Shown here piece after piece: positions 17,570 to 23,274 of a stretch of 35,972 nucleotides of DNA (positions are counted from its first letter, which is position 1; every line of letters begins with the position of its first letter). Below the pieces are notes generated by a model. The model was not told the origin of the DNA. It worked only from the letters and a program-made list of their open reading frames with translations, and did not search any database. The stretch is from an uncultured Woeseiaceae bacterium (GTDB lineage Bacteria; Pseudomonadota; Gammaproteobacteria; Steroidobacterales; Woeseiaceae), in assembly GCA_945788575.1 (NCBI GenBank), contig CALZMR010000012.1, forward strand, positions 1-35,972, read 5' to 3'. The translations under genes and the position numbers were made by a program.

Positions 17570-18130
17570 ATGGTCGCGAATCTCGACATGCAGAGCGATA
17601 TCGACCTCGTCGATATCTGCAATACCGGCGATGCCCGGTCGGCGGAGGCGGCGTTCGGCGCGCTCTACGCCCGGCACAAGGATTTCGTGGTGAGAGTGGC
17701 GCTCGGTACCGTCGGTGACAACGCCATCGCGCTCGACACGCTGCAGGAAACCTTCACGTGGCTGCTCAAGCAGTTTCCGCCGGCCGGGAAAGGGCTGACG
17801 CTCACAGCCAAGCTGACCACTTTGCTGTACCCGGTAGCCCGCAATTTCGCCATCAGCGAATGGCGCCGAGGCAAGGCACTTGCGGCCGACGCCGATCCCG
17901 AAAACCTCGAAGCCCCCGGCGTAGACACGGCCAACGACGTGCAGCGCGTACTGCGGGAACTTCCGGTCGATCGCCGTGAGGCGGCGATACTGCGCTTCGT
18001 GCACGGGATGTCGCTCAACGAGATCGCGGAGGCGCTGGACGTGCCTCCGGGAACGGTCAAGTCGCGCCTGCATGCAGCCGTCACCCAACTCCGCAACTCG
18101 CCGAAATTAAAGGCGTTTTTCGAAAAATGA
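17570..18130 (+). CDS. ECF-type sigma-70 family RNA polymerase sigma factor
   Basis: About 186 residues. The region-2 part reads FGALYARHKDFVVRVAL...ALDTLQETFTWLL. The region-4 helix-turn-helix is well preserved: LPVDRREAAILRFVHGMSLNEIAEAL followed by VPPGTVKSRLHAAVTQLR. The order and length are those of group 4 (ECF) sigma factors. The ATG at 17570 is chosen; another in-frame ATG at 17588 is equally possible, and neither has a strong ribosome binding site. It begins a five-gene plus-strand cluster of membrane, secreted and lipoprotein genes and is probably their regulator. It is divergent from the transporter gene, with a 64-bp gap. Confidence 0.9.
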   Translation: MVANLDMQSDIDLVDICNTGDARSAEAAFGALYARHKDFVVRVALGTVGDNAIALDTLQETFTWLLKQFPPAGKGLTLTAKLTTLLYPVARNFAISEWRRGKALAADADPENLEAPGVDTANDVQRVLRELPVDRREAAILRFVHGMSLNEIAEALDVPPGTVKSRLHAAVTQLRNSPKLKAFFEK

Positions 18131-18155
18131 ACCTTTTTGGCGGCTGCCACGCTAT

Positions 18156-18554
18156 ATGCACATGGAGCCGCCGATCAACAGTGACGAGTTACCCGAGCTG
18201 CCCGACGAACTCGTCGAAGCTTTGCGGGAAGAAGACCTCACCCTGATCACGTCACGGGTCGATCGAAAGATCGCCGCGCGTGCGCGCCGGACGTTCAAGT
18301 CCCGAAAAGCAGCCAGACCGGTTCGCAAGCATCGGATAACCCGCTGGGCGGCGATTGCCGCGAGCGTCGTTGCGGCGGTCATCGTAATCGGCGACATGCG
18401 CAGTCCGCGTACGCTATACGCCGATCACGATCGCTCCGGACAGATCGACATCGCTGACGTGTTCACTGTCGCACGCGACGACGACGCGTACAGCCAGGAC
18501 GATCTCGACGCCTTCGCGATGCGGATCGTGTCGTTGAACGAGGACGCGTCGTGA
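18156..18554 (+). CDS. One-TM protein with dockerin-like EF-hand, possible anti-sigma
   Basis: A 132-residue protein directly after the sigma gene (25-bp gap). Residues 1-62 are a charged, probably cytoplasmic domain (ELPELPDELVEAL, then a basic stretch). Residues 63-79 form one membrane span (WAAIAASVVAAVIVIG). The outside tail holds a calcium-loop pattern D90-x-D92-x-S94-G-x-I97-D98-x-x-D101, like half of a type I dockerin or an EF-hand. The position and topology are those of an anti-sigma factor, but the zinc-type HxxxCxxC motif is absent. Sigma binding is inferred only from position. An ATG two codons in is also possible. The stop overlaps the next gene's GTG by four bases. Confidence 0.72.
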   Translation: MHMEPPINSDELPELPDELVEALREEDLTLITSRVDRKIAARARRTFKSRKAARPVRKHRITRWAAIAASVVAAVIVIGDMRSPRTLYADHDRSGQIDIADVFTVARDDDAYSQDDLDAFAMRIVSLNEDAS

Positions 18555-18991
18555 AGCGGCTCGCCGTTCTAATGTTGTTACTGGTCGCCGGTGCCAATGC
18601 CGCACCGCGCTTCCAGGCACTGGAGATCTGGATCGAGACGGACCAGCCGGTCGCCGCGTGGCAGTTCGAAATCCGGGACGCGAACGGATTCACGACGATT
18701 GTCGGCGTCGAGAACGGCGACAGCGACGCCTTCGGCGACGCACCCTACTACGACCGCGATGCAGTAGACGGCGGCAACGCCGAGCGCATCGTCGTCGCGG
18801 ACTACACGCTTGCCGACGATCTGCCGAGCGGCCACTTCCGGCTGGCTACCGTGCACGTGATGGTGGACGGCGGCGAACCCGAATTCGAACTTACACTCGT
18901 TACAGTAACTGACGGCGATGGCCGGCGCATCGATGCTTCGATCAGCGTACGCGAAGCCGGCATGCAGGATCACAATGGGAGGCAACCATGA
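18551..18991 (+). CDS. Small secreted protein, cohesin-like pattern
   Basis: A 146-residue protein with a GTG start (GTGA overlap) and a clear signal peptide (MKRLAVLMLLLVAGANAA). The mature part is beta-rich and contains no cysteine. The run VAAWQFEIRD (34-43), IVGVENGDSDAF (50-61), then APYYD and GHFRLATVHVMVDGGEPEF (94-112) recalls the alternation in cohesin/CBM-like jelly-roll domains, where a strand pair is followed by an 'L-x-T-V-x-x' strand. This similarity is from reading the pattern and is not proven. The neighbour upstream has a dockerin-like calcium loop on the outside of the membrane, so a contact between the two is an attractive guess. The stop overlaps the next ATG (ATGA). Confidence 0.7.
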   Translation: MKRLAVLMLLLVAGANAAPRFQALEIWIETDQPVAAWQFEIRDANGFTTIVGVENGDSDAFGDAPYYDRDAVDGGNAERIVVADYTLADDLPSGHFRLATVHVMVDGGEPEFELTLVTVTDGDGRRIDASISVREAGMQDHNGRQP

Positions 18992-21171
18992 AGAATCTGA
19001 TGGTGCTCGTGAAGGTAATTATTCTGGCCCTTGGTACGGCGCTGCTGGTGTTCGGCTGCTCGACCATGGAAAGCGCATCGGTACCCGAACCAACGGCATC
19101 AGACGGGTCCGGAGAGCTCGAGGAGATCATGGTCACGGGTAGTCGCATCATAAACGGGGCCGCCTCGTCCAACGCACCGGTGGTAGTCAACGTGGATGGT
19201 GGCGTCGCCCCGGGGCGTTGGCAGGGCTTAGCAGGAGTCGCGCAGGCATTGCCGAATCTCACCGATCCCAGTGAGGAGATCTGGGTCATCGCGCGCTACG
19301 ACGCCGAGACCCCGGCAAGCCAGCAGGACGACGAGGCCGGCACCGGCGCGCTGGTCGGATACCTGCCGGTGCAGCCCGATGAAGCCGAGATTCGCGTGCC
19401 GATGCCGCTGACGCACACGTCCGTGACGGCCAACATCGATGGCTACGTCTCGTCAGTCAATGTACGGCAGACCTTCGAGAATCCGTTCAATGAGAAGATC
19501 GAAGCCGTCTATATGTTTCCGCTGCCGGAGAAATCGGCCGTCAGCGAATTCCTGATGATCATCGGCGACCGCCGCATACGGGGCATCCTCCGTGAGAAGG
19601 AAGAAGCCGAAGAGATTTACGCGGAAGCGCGTCGCCAGGGCTATCAGGCCAGCCTGCTCGTGCAACATCGGCCGAACGTTTTCGAACAGCGTGTCGCGAA
19701 CATCGAGCCCGGCAACGCCATCGATGTCGACATCCGCTATTTCCACACACTCGCTTACCAAGACGGCTGGTATTCGTTCGTCTTCCCGACCGTCGTGGGA
19801 CCCAGATTCAACCCGCCGGGTTCGAGCGACCCGATCGAGGCCGTTGGCCGCGGCCAGCCGACACCCGATACCGCGGTCACCTACCTTCGCCCCAACGAGC
19901 GCTCGGGCCATGACATCTCGATCAGCGTCGACCTCGATGCGGGCGTCGAGATCGAGGACCTGCGCTCGACGCATCAGATCGTGACGTCGGCGACGAGGCC
20001 GGATTCCGTGCAGGTGTCGCTGGCATCGCAAGCAAGCATTCCCAATCGCGACTTCATCCTCGAATTTCGCGTGGCCGGCGAGCAGATTCGTTCGAACGTG
20101 CTGACTCACCGCGATCCGCAGTCGGGCGAGGGTTACTTCACGATGATGCTGTATCCACCGCAGGTGCCGGACAACCTGCCCAGACGCGCGATGGAGATGG
20201 TCTTCGTGCTCGACTGCTCCGGATCGATGAGCGGCCAGCCGCTCGACCAGGCGAAGGACGCGGTTGCCGCAGCCTTGTCTCACCTGCAGCCGCAGGACAC
20301 GTTCCAGATCATCCGCTTTTCCGAGAACGCCAGCCGGCTCGGCACGAGGCCGCTGCGCGCGACACCCGCGAACCTCGCGACGGCGCGCCGCTATCTCGCC
20401 AGCCTGAACAGCACCGGCGGCACGATGATGATCGAGGGCATCAAAGCGGCGCTCGACTTCCCGGACGATCCCGCTCGGCTCAGATTCGTCTCGTTCATGA
20501 CAGACGGCTACATCGGTAACGAGCGCGAGATTCTCGGCGCGGTGCACGAGCGGATCGGCTCGTCGCGCATCTTCAGCTTCGGCGTCGGTTCCTCCGTGAA
20601 CCGTTACCTGCTCGAGCGCATGGCGCAGGAAGGCCGTGGCGCCGTTGCGTGGCTGGGCCCGCAGGATTCTGGCAGCGACATCATGTCTTCGTTTTTCGCT
20701 CGCATCAGCCAGCCCGCCATGACCGACCTAAGCATCGACTGGGGCGGCATGCGGGTATCGGACGTCTACCCGTCGCGGCTGCCGGACCTGTTCGTCGGCC
20801 GCCCGATCGTCCTCACCGGCAGGTTCGACGGGCCGCTGTCCACGATCACGGTCACCGGCCTTGCGGGAGGGGAGACCGAGCAGTACGTCGTCCGGCCGTC
20901 GGCAGAGGACACGAATCCGAACCTCGGCAAGATCTGGGCGCGGCTTCGCATCGCGGACCTCTCGAATCGGCAGAACTGGCAGCAGGATCCGTACGGTGAA
21001 CTCGAGACGGCGATCCTTCAGACCGCGCTGCAACACCAGCTCGTCTCCGACTACACGGCCTTTGTCGCCGTGGACGCGAGCCACGTGACGGCCGGCGACC
21101 ACGGCACCACGGTCGAGCAGGCCGTGCCGGTTCCTGACGGAGTGCGTTACGAGACCACGGTTCAAGACTAG
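18988..21171 (+). CDS. VIT-vWA domain lipoprotein with TonB-box-like motif
   Basis: A 727-residue lipoprotein: the signal sequence ends in the lipobox VFG-C24. Residues 43-54 (ELEEIMVTGSRI) match the TonB-box/plug-entry motif of TonB-dependent receptors, though no receptor barrel follows. A VIT domain spans about 136-265 (NVRQTFENPFNEKIEAVYMF, EEAEEIYAEARRQG, FEQRVANIEPG). A vWA domain spans about 400-570, with an intact MIDAS start D409-C-S411-G-S413 and the later Asp in SFMTDGYIG. The C-terminal region (570-727) is of the kind found after vWA in such proteins. The fold resembles inter-alpha-trypsin-inhibitor heavy chains. The role is probably metal-dependent protein binding in the periplasm or at the outer membrane. 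It is the main cargo of the sigma cluster. Confidence 0.93.
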   Translation: MKNLMVLVKVIILALGTALLVFGCSTMESASVPEPTASDGSGELEEIMVTGSRIINGAASSNAPVVVNVDGGVAPGRWQGLAGVAQALPNLTDPSEEIWVIARYDAETPASQQDDEAGTGALVGYLPVQPDEAEIRVPMPLTHTSVTANIDGYVSSVNVRQTFENPFNEKIEAVYMFPLPEKSAVSEFLMIIGDRRIRGILREKEEAEEIYAEARRQGYQASLLVQHRPNVFEQRVANIEPGNAIDVDIRYFHTLAYQDGWYSFVFPTVVGPRFNPPGSSDPIEAVGRGQPTPDTAVTYLRPNERSGHDISISVDLDAGVEIEDLRSTHQIVTSATRPDSVQVSLASQASIPNRDFILEFRVAGEQIRSNVLTHRDPQSGEGYFTMMLYPPQVPDNLPRRAMEMVFVLDCSGSMSGQPLDQAKDAVAAALSHLQPQDTFQIIRFSENASRLGTRPLRATPANLATARRYLASLNSTGGTMMIEGIKAALDFPDDPARLRFVSFMTDGYIGNEREILGAVHERIGSSRIFSFGVGSSVNRYLLERMAQEGRGAVAWLGPQDSGSDIMSSFFARISQPAMTDLSIDWGGMRVSDVYPSRLPDLFVGRPIVLTGRFDGPLSTITVTGLAGGETEQYVVRPSAEDTNPNLGKIWARLRIADLSNRQNWQQDPYGELETAILQTALQHQLVSDYTAFVAVDASHVTAGDHGTTVEQAVPVPDGVRYETTVQD

Positions 21172-21184
21172 TCGGGAGCTGATC

Positions 21185-21961
21185 ATGGATAGAAGACTAC
21201 TGATGGTGCTGTTCGCACTCCTCGTCTCCGGCTGCGCCACCTATGTCACACCCGGCGGTGGCGTATCGATGGCCGGCATCGACGACGCCACGATCGAGGA
21301 AGCCTATTCGCGGCAACCGGCCAGCGCATTTCCGGCGAATATCGCGATGATCCGCGTGCAGCATGCCGGGTATCGGACAAGAACGGCACACGGCTACCAC
21401 ATCGGCACGTGGTCGGTCGTCACGACGCGCGACATCGAGTCCGAGGAGGCCATCGAGCGTATCGCCACGCTGCCACTGATCGACGGCGTAGCGCCGGTCG
21501 GCCGGCTGCTGCTGCCCCAGGACGCGCGTGGCATAAAGGATCTGCGCCGATCGGCCGCCCAACTCAGGGCCGATATGCTGCTGGTCTACTCCGTCGACAC
21601 TCAGTACACGGTCGAGGGCCAGACTTTCGGGCCATTCACGGCGATCTCGCTGGGCATGCTGCCCAACCGGACGGCGCACGTGACGTCCACCGTTGCCGGC
21701 CTTCTCGTCGATGACCGGACAGGATTCATCTACGGTTCGAGCGAATCGACGGCGACGGAGAGACCGCGCTCGGGCGCGTGGACGACCGCTGCCGCAGCCG
21801 ACGAGGCCCGGCTCAGGTCTGAACGGCAGGCGTTCGAGGATTTCGTGGACGAGTTCGCGCTGCTCTGGAGCGGCGTAGCGGCCGCTCACGCCGGCCGGCC
21901 CGCGGGTATCCCGGAGGTGCGAGATGACCCGGATAGCTGGCACTACTACCGCCGAGATTAG
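21185..21961 (+). CDS. Lipoprotein of unknown function
   Basis: A 258-residue lipoprotein: MDRRLLMVLFALLVSG-C17 is a textbook lipobox. The mature part has IAMIRVQHAGY, LRADMLLVYSVDTQYTVEG and ATERPRSGAWTTAAAADEARLRSE, with alternating strands and one long C-terminal helix. I do not recognise a named family. The middle (a promised value compared and stored, with strands around LLVYS) recalls small periplasmic stress lipoproteins, but this is not enough for a call. It starts 13 bases after the VIT-vWA gene, so it belongs to the same operon and is its last member before the repeat-rich intergenic stretch. Confidence 0.78.
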   Translation: MDRRLLMVLFALLVSGCATYVTPGGGVSMAGIDDATIEEAYSRQPASAFPANIAMIRVQHAGYRTRTAHGYHIGTWSVVTTRDIESEEAIERIATLPLIDGVAPVGRLLLPQDARGIKDLRRSAAQLRADMLLVYSVDTQYTVEGQTFGPFTAISLGMLPNRTAHVTSTVAGLLVDDRTGFIYGSSESTATERPRSGAWTTAAAADEARLRSERQAFEDFVDEFALLWSGVAAAHAGRPAGIPEVRDDPDSWHYYRRD

Positions 21962-22209: not shown

Positions 22210-22308
22210 AAGTTATTGTCAAATATTTGAACCAGTCGAACCTTATACGGTAGCGAACCCGCCTAAAATCGGGGTTTGCAGAGCCTCGACGAGCGAGGGC
22301 AGGGGTCG

Positions 22309-23274
22309 ATGGGCAAATTCATCATTGGACTGGTAGTGGCTGGCGTCGTCGGTTTCTTCGGCACGAAGTGGAAGCTGGAAAGTGACGTCGAAGCCGCCGT
22401 GGACATGATGGTCATGATGTCCTCGCCATATGCGGATATCGAGTACAGCGGCGTCAGCACGACGCTGACCGGTGAACTGACGGTCGACGATATTCGGATA
22501 AACGTCCACGGCATTGGCGACGAAATCTATATCGGCCGTTTCGGCATCGACACGCCGAGCTTCCTGTCGCTGATGAAGCTCGGCGACATGCAGTCGTCGT
22601 GGGGCTCTGACGACGAGATCCTGCCGAAGTACTTTGGGATCATCATCGAGCACGTTCGCCTGCCCACCAATGGCGACCTTGCGCGCCAGGGCTATCGAGA
22701 GCGTCTCGAGGAACTCGGCATCGAAGGCGACGTCGATACGGCTGCCGCCTGTACCGGGCGCTACGGCTTCTCGCCAGACGCATTTACCGCGCTGGGCTAC
22801 CGCGAGTTCGACCTATCGATGTCCATGCGCTTCCGCGACCTCGGCAGCCGCTACTCGGTCGAGCTCGAGGGCGAGAATGCCGGGGCAATTTCGATCAGCG
22901 GCGAGCTGATTCTGGCCGGCAATATGGTGACCGAGCTTGCCAAGGGTCCCCGCTATCGGCCGCGCCTCGACGAGATGCGCATCGAATACAACGATATTTC
23001 CCACAACGCACGCGTCGTCGAATACTGCCGCCGCCTCGGCCTGAGTGATGAGGAAATCCTCGCCGCGCAGATGGACACCTTCAAGTTCATGGGTGCCGAG
23101 TTCGGGGTCGAATTCGACGAGTACGTCCTCGTACCGCTCGAGGAGTTTCTGACCGGCGGCTCGACGCTCATCATCACAGCCGACCCGAACGACCCGGTCG
23201 CGCTGTCGCAGATCACGCTGTACAAGCCGAGCGACGTGCCGGCGCTGCTGCAGCTCACGGCCGAGGCGCGATAG
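22309..23274 (+). CDS. Membrane-anchored protein of unknown function
   Basis: 321 residues from the ATG at 22309, which follows a GAGGGCAGGGG site; a TTG 11 codons upstream is less likely. The N-terminus ([17 protein letters not shown]) is an uncleaved anchor or signal. The rest is probably periplasmic: [24 protein letters not shown] is the sort of amphipathic strand pattern seen at the start of DUF945/AsmA-like periplasmic proteins. The central part repeats it ([33 protein letters not shown]). A pair of cysteines (ACTGRYG and EYCRRLG) may be disulphide-bonded. I cannot name the family. It is 68 bp upstream of the aldolase but functionally unrelated to it as far as I can see. Confidence 0.75.

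Follow-up and report, generated by a model that had tools for sequence, protein, structure and literature searches.

The window, meaning the whole 35,972-nucleotide stretch analysed here (contig C12 of a Woeseiaceae-type gammaproteobacterial MAG), contains a cassette of five genes, all on the forward strand, whose open reading frames and coordinates we confirmed (17570–21961; Table 1). They encode an ECF sigma factor, a one-TM membrane protein, a small secreted protein, a VIT-vWA lipoprotein and a second lipoprotein. As described in a first-pass annotation of this DNA, the genes are joined by 4-base overlaps or short gaps: genes 2 and 3 overlap by 4 nt (GTGA at 18551), as do genes 3 and 4 (ATGA at 18988), while 25 nt lie between the sigma factor gene and gene 2, and 13 nt between genes 4 and 5. 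Directly 3′ of the cassette, the window encodes a 332-residue protein (22276–23274) that has no Pfam or NCBIfam match.

Table 1. Features of the five-gene cassette, in window coordinates.
Feature	Position	Strand	Basis or detail
Gene 1, ECF sigma factor of regions 2 and 4 without C-terminal extension	17570..18130	+	Starts at ATG 17570
Gene 2, predicted one-TM membrane anti-sigma factor, 132 aa	18156..18554	+	Relatives, alignment
Predicted half dockerin of gene 2	18423..18551	+	Calcium loop DHDRSGQIDIAD at 18423–18458
Gene 3, predicted secreted cohesin, 146 aa	18551..18991	+	AlphaFold2 model, PDB fold matches
Gene 4, VIT-vWA lipoprotein	18988..21171	+	Pfam VIT, VWA_3
TonB-box-like peptide LEEIMVTGSRI in gene 4, between lipid anchor and VIT	19117..19149	+	Motif count against shuffles
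VIT domain of gene 4	19408..19740	+	Pfam VIT, 5.8e-34
vWA domain of gene 4	20194..20643	+	Pfam VWA_3, 1.3e-17
Gene 5, second lipoprotein, 258 aa	21185..21961	+	Lipobox VSGC; family-less

The sigma factor consists of Sigma70 regions 2 and 4 only (Pfam Sigma70_r2, PF04542, 4.3e-7; Sigma70_r4_2, PF08281, 2.5e-14), which places it among the ECF sigma factors, and it scores 64.8 bits against TIGR02937, above the cut-off of 42.9. In related loci, orthologues of this sigma factor stand 5′ of the same gene set. Inspection of the promoters by eye revealed no ECF-type promoter upstream and no common ECF −35 element, for which reason autoregulation of the operon is not claimed; a TACACT sequence lies close to the start in some Woeseiaceae. 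A profile search proposed earlier for the whole cassette was informative for the sigma factor, VIT and vWA, and gave zero Pfam matches for the products of genes 2, 3 and 5. Since the 132- and 146-residue proteins of genes 2 and 3 thus had no Pfam match of their own, their dockerin and cohesin readings were checked through relatives and structure.

The gene 2 product comprises a cytoplasmic N-terminal part, a TM helix at residues ~63–80 and a periplasmic half dockerin. The layout of a membrane anti-sigma factor (cytoplasmic part, TM helix, periplasmic part and an adjoining sigma factor gene) is recognisable weakly in the window protein and clearly in its relatives. The window protein matches the anti-sigma model NF052375 at 9.7e-4, below the cut-off, and 21 of its 39 relatives match the NCBIfam anti-sigma model, the best at 6e-9. 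Furthermore, the zinc motif HxxxCxxC, which many anti-sigma factors share, is present in L054, L069, L073 and L079 as well as in distant loci. Because of these family matches and the zinc motif of its relatives, we assign the window protein to the ordinary anti-sigma lineage as a member that has lost its zinc site. The first-pass annotation had set it apart from normal zinc anti-sigma factors, correctly as regards the absent zinc site, but its lineage is an ordinary one in which relatives keep the motif.

In related loci, the gene lying between those for the sigma factor and the cohesin likewise encodes a short cytoplasmic part and a TM helix. The Planctomycetota version carries a complete dockerin (DIDxSGRVDILDAF...DxNGDGxVxxxDV), whereas the gammaproteobacterial type has kept loop 1 and the second helix and has lost loop 2. 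For an assessment free of any motif, we picked upstream genes purely by position, taking the longest open reading frame that ends beside each cohesin start, and found one in 60 of 67 loci. At least one calcium loop follows the TM helix in 57 of these 60 genes (chance in shuffled sequences, 0.028 each), and two or more loops are present in 28. With the window protein added, 32 of 61 match PF00404, the best at 2e-10, and the dockerin family profile matches solved dockerins (best 7.4e-7). These position-picked counts replace two earlier ones: the statement that all 52 dockerins keep a calcium loop was withdrawn, that set having been chosen by the loop motif itself, and a dockerin count of 23 of 39 came from motif-picked members. 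Two of the three loop-less entries, L018:855-1256 and L022:5212-5631, retain the helices and have lost every calcium loop (L018 belongs to the same genus as the window; L018 and L023 are one 3,928-base contig), and the third, L052, is a spurious reading frame. The window protein itself lacks the two calcium-loop-helix repeats of a type I dockerin and has no PF00404 match; judged by its relatives, its C-terminus is a degenerate half dockerin of the dockerin lineage, not a full dockerin. The proposal of a one-TM protein with a dockerin-like external loop is therefore upheld as to lineage and needs qualifying as to extent, as only half a dockerin is present in the window.

Gene 3 encodes a signal peptide without a lipobox, followed by a mature domain from about 18608. 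An AlphaFold2 model built with 65 relatives reached a pLDDT of 91.4 and a pTM of 0.81, and its best PDB match in Foldseek was an Archaeoglobus cohesin (2.4e-4); the 50 matches listed were cohesins or cohesin-bearing chains except 4hss, 6e3f and 4p1x. VIA-align gave a Z-score of 10.2 and 2.8 Å over 114 residues, with cohesins in the first 44 rows. At the profile level, PF00963 is matched weakly by five of the 65 relatives (best E 0.0012) and not by the window protein, which does not reach the curated cut-off of the family, and a search of PDB sequences with the cohesin profile gave one chance match only. By its predicted fold, which resembles almost exclusively solved cohesins, gene 3 encodes a cohesin, in agreement with the cohesin-like pattern first noticed in this small secreted protein.

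In one Planctomycetota locus (L067), the anti-sigma and cohesin genes lie in one frame with a single TAG between them, which we read through purely for modelling, yielding a 221-residue chain. Separate dockerin rows became misaligned onto the cohesin in joint alignments, and we therefore used five in-frame read-through rows (L067 and four others) together with cohesin rows as input. The resulting model has a pLDDT of 83.4 and a pTM of 0.76, with about 44 of the 221 residues disordered. Because a pTM of ~0.49 would be expected if the cohesin alone were placed, and ~0.75 if both domains were, the prediction apparently positions the dockerin against the cohesin; it does so in a single chain joined by the read-through linker and for the full dockerin of a planctomycete, of which the window protein has only half. 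Docking of the dockerin-like module onto the neighbouring cohesin, as first envisaged from the window alone, is made likely by this model.

The two proteins also appear to be reserved for one another. A family search finds one cohesin in the genome of the window (PF00963 itself finds none) and exactly one in each of ten relatives' genomes. No other dockerin in the window's genome exceeds the cut-off of PF00404, a profile that also misses the half dockerin of the window, and no other protein there matches the gene 2 profile in full, the next match (E 0.006) covering the N-terminal and TM part only. Pairwise distances of sigma factor, anti-sigma factor, cohesin and VIT-vWA protein correlate at 0.82–0.90. 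Judging from these comparisons, cohesin and dockerin apparently form a private pair, and the four proteins seem to have been inherited together.

The annotation of gene 4 as a VIT-vWA lipoprotein was confirmed by the matches in Table 1 and a lipobox (VFGC), and its vWA domain has an intact MIDAS (DCSGS). A TonB-box-like peptide occupies the linker between its lipid anchor and the VIT domain in 19 of 28 gammaproteobacterial-type members, where shuffled sequences would give 0.28; this excess is somewhat flattered because the motif pattern was written after inspection of the sequences. The peptide is found in one of 44 other members. Similar peptides occur in several TonB receptors of the same genome, and in L026, L027 and L081 the similarity continues into a plug-like stretch. 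In three Planctomycetota loci (L038, L040 and L051), the same interval is secretin-like (GDIPIVGGLY, GDTPLVGNLF and GDVPVVGGLF), and a scan of the linkers from 64 members detected PF00263 in three (best 2.8e-4) and carboxypeptidase-regulatory-like domains in two. Because such TonB-box-, plug- and secretin-like stretches recur in the linkers, there are hints that the VIT-vWA lipoprotein works at the outer membrane. The gene 4 N-termini of L013–L037 and L081 present TonB-box-like peptides in a lipoprotein that is free of any barrel.

Gene 4 shares its VIT-vWA architecture with the marine proteobacterial sortase target family TIGR03788, but was rejected as a member: its score of 485.4 bits is below the curated cut-off of 551.65, and the protein has a lipid anchor in place of a C-terminal sortase signal or TM segment, ending in TVEQAVPVPDGVRYETTVQD. 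Elsewhere in the genome (G000:C4:32296-32772, at a contig end), a sortase close to the marine sortase family scores 147 bits (cut-off 158); no VIT-vWA gene lies beside it up to the contig end. Gene 5, the second lipoprotein noted at the end of the cassette, is one by its lipobox, and searches against Pfam, NCBIfam and PDB sequences gave no match. It comes after VIT in L072 and the Woeseiaceae-type loci; in L139, a relative (pairwise E 0.001) lies downstream of the cohesin.

Conservation of the gene order was assessed in genomes chosen by a cohesin search alone, gene order playing no part in their selection. The cohesin is present in 11 of 99 genomes (the window's own, 60 of the genus and 38 of the order); in the ten others, a VIT-vWA gene is downstream in every case and a sigma factor gene upstream in nine, the tenth (L016) being on a contig that begins inside the operon. 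Across Pseudomonadota as a whole it is rarely found, with the window's own genome as the one positive among 398. Planctomycetota yielded 20 positive genomes out of 199, with 13 strong and seven weak matches, one of the 20 being the genome of L067, which was used as centre. Among the strong matches, a dockerin anti-sigma gene is upstream in 12 of 13 (not seen in L134), and VIT-vWA is downstream in 12 of 13, the contig of L125 leaving only 1.1 kb. Six of the seven weak matches (L139–L144) have an ECF sigma factor, at least in part, a zinc-motif anti-sigma factor with a C-terminal dockerin of one or two loops (all six covered to the end) and a lipobox cohesin, with no VIT-vWA gene within the stretch examined. 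Some of these anti-sigma factors have a long, coiled-coil-like middle. At L138:1075-1866, a 98-residue dockerin protein and a cohesin lipoprotein are neighbours, and no sigma factor lies within reach.

Because L139–L144 keep sigma factor, dockerin-bearing anti-sigma factor and cohesin with no VIT-vWA gene in reach, these three constitute the core of the system, as judged by comparison of loci, and VIT-vWA is an addition to it. The gene order is kept in Gammaproteobacteria and in MAGs of Planctomycetota, Acidobacteriota, Myxococcota-type bacteria and Fermentibacteria, so that conservation in relatives, which had been named as a check on the first-pass annotation, extends to several phyla. Neither result that would have counted against that annotation, small proteins of unrelated families or an order lost in relatives, was obtained. 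In a midpoint-rooted tree of VIT-vWA proteins, the gammaproteobacterial type forms one cluster, including one MAG labelled Deltaproteobacteria, that lies beside a Phycisphaeraceae sequence and within the diversity of Planctomycetota; this nesting suggests, from the sequences, a source of the cassette in Planctomycetota.

Cohesin–dockerin pairs are familiar as the modules that hold cellulosomes together, and many genomes also encode them outside cellulosomes, in most cases with no function assigned. The pair described here resembles the cellulosomal one (PF00963, PF00404) in cohesin fold, dockerin and predicted docking. Unlike in cellulosomes, it is a single private pair in a Gram-negative periplasm, its dockerin is fused to an anti-sigma factor (and is halved in the Gammaproteobacteria studied here), and no enzyme or scaffoldin is encoded at the locus. 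The arrangement suggests that the clasp serves the control of gene expression, not the assembly of an enzyme complex. In the SigI–RsgI systems of cellulolytic clostridia, a sigma factor is likewise paired with a membrane anti-sigma factor that has an outside sensing module, in the setting of cohesin and dockerin biology. There, dockerin and cohesin genes belong to the regulon and neither of two papers describes a dockerin on the anti-sigma factor (PMC6056542, PMC4711584), whereas here the dockerin is on the anti-sigma factor itself. The ‘planctosome’ of freshwater Planctomycetes is another case of non-cellulosomal cohesin–dockerin modules, proposed to form a peptidase scaffold with no sigma or anti-sigma factor in the proposed complex (PMC6461901); the cassette has both.

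The closest parallel in gene order is rpoE-rseA-rseB, in which sigma factor, anti-sigma factor and periplasmic binder follow one another (PMC4598750, PMC4336711), and in which the periplasmic protein sits on the anti-sigma factor, shielding it from cleavage until displaced by a signal (PMC4598750). Here too, the genes for an ECF sigma factor and a one-TM anti-sigma factor precede that of a periplasmic protein whose expected target is the anti-sigma factor's periplasmic end, so that the order fits, with the binding being modelled. The cassette differs from σE–RseA–RseB in its periplasmic partners, dockerin and cohesin, and in the VIT-vWA and second lipoproteins of the operon, and its control of the sigma factor is putative. 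We consider it probable that the cassette is an ECF sigma/anti-sigma operon for envelope sensing, similar to RseA/RseB, with cohesin and dockerin as a periplasmic clasp or switch. By homology, the N-terminal domain of the anti-sigma factor would hold the sigma factor at the inner membrane, while its periplasmic dockerin would pair with the dedicated cohesin encoded directly downstream, the folds being predicted and the binding modelled. The cohesin would act in the manner of RseB, protecting or clamping the anti-sigma factor when bound, and a change in the envelope would shift the clasp, upon which the anti-sigma factor would release the sigma factor or be cut. The two lipoproteins, probably at the outer membrane, may serve as sensors or anchors. 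In distant relatives, whose cohesin has its own lipid anchor, the clasp could fasten the anti-sigma factor to the outer membrane. A bolder version, in which the cassette represents an undescribed, widespread class of sigma signalling whose clasp links outer-membrane lipoproteins to the anti-sigma factor, with coupling to TonB through the TonB box in Gammaproteobacteria, appears doubtful to us.

Instead of sensing, the pair might only recruit, localising the anti-sigma factor or cohesin at an envelope scaffold while the signal takes another route. The binding known from cellulosomes is tight and structural, and in distant loci the cohesin is itself a lipoprotein, both of which would suit recruitment. 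Mere recruitment is nevertheless rather unlikely in view of the privacy of the pair and the position of the cohesin gene, which overlaps or directly follows that of the anti-sigma factor, as expected of a dedicated regulator. Calcium as the signal, which the first-pass annotation had put forward, would have the dockerin fold and grip the cohesin only above a threshold of periplasmic calcium. That 57 of the 60 position-picked genes encode a loop behind the TM helix is consistent with this, and the vWA MIDAS likewise binds metal. However, L018 and L022 carry neither loop and yet keep sigma factor, cohesin and VIT-vWA, which argues against a general calcium signal; calcium in ordinary dockerins is structural and may be only that here, making a calcium sensor quite unlikely.

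A further possibility concerns Gammaproteobacteria, where TonB might pull on the VIT-vWA lipoprotein through its TonB box and pass the force to cohesin and anti-sigma factor, as a barrel-free analogue of FecA–FecR–FecI. Although the enrichment of the motif, its plug-like continuations and the similar peptides in the genome's own TonB receptors would suit such coupling, we regard it as very unlikely: the core system manages without a TonB box, since only one of the 44 other members has the motif. The TonB-dependent β-barrel transducer of FecA–FecR–FecI signalling has no counterpart among the five genes. A reading of the VIT-vWA protein as surface adhesin or sortase target, with the sigma factor merely transcribing its gene, is highly improbable. 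The resemblance to TIGR03788 and the sortase elsewhere in the genome are set against a sub-threshold score and a lipoprotein lacking any C-terminal sortase signal or TM segment, and this reading would leave unexplained the dockerin and cohesin, which distant loci keep in the absence of VIT.

The periplasmic clasp thus remains our preferred reading. A link between a dockerin and an anti-sigma factor was not found in the open literature searched, although an earlier mention is possible, and neither an ECF review nor a paper on anti-sigma classification mentions dockerin or cohesin. The cassette, flagged at first as a candidate undescribed system, is real and conserved and represents an apparently undescribed variant of ECF sigma signalling. 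A private cohesin–dockerin pair within a putative sigma/anti-sigma switch, kept in several phyla, provides these modules with a definite part in signalling that can be put to the test. As a periplasmic clasp on an anti-sigma factor it would be of a new kind, and it offers a way to approach what VIT-vWA proteins do in Planctomycetota.
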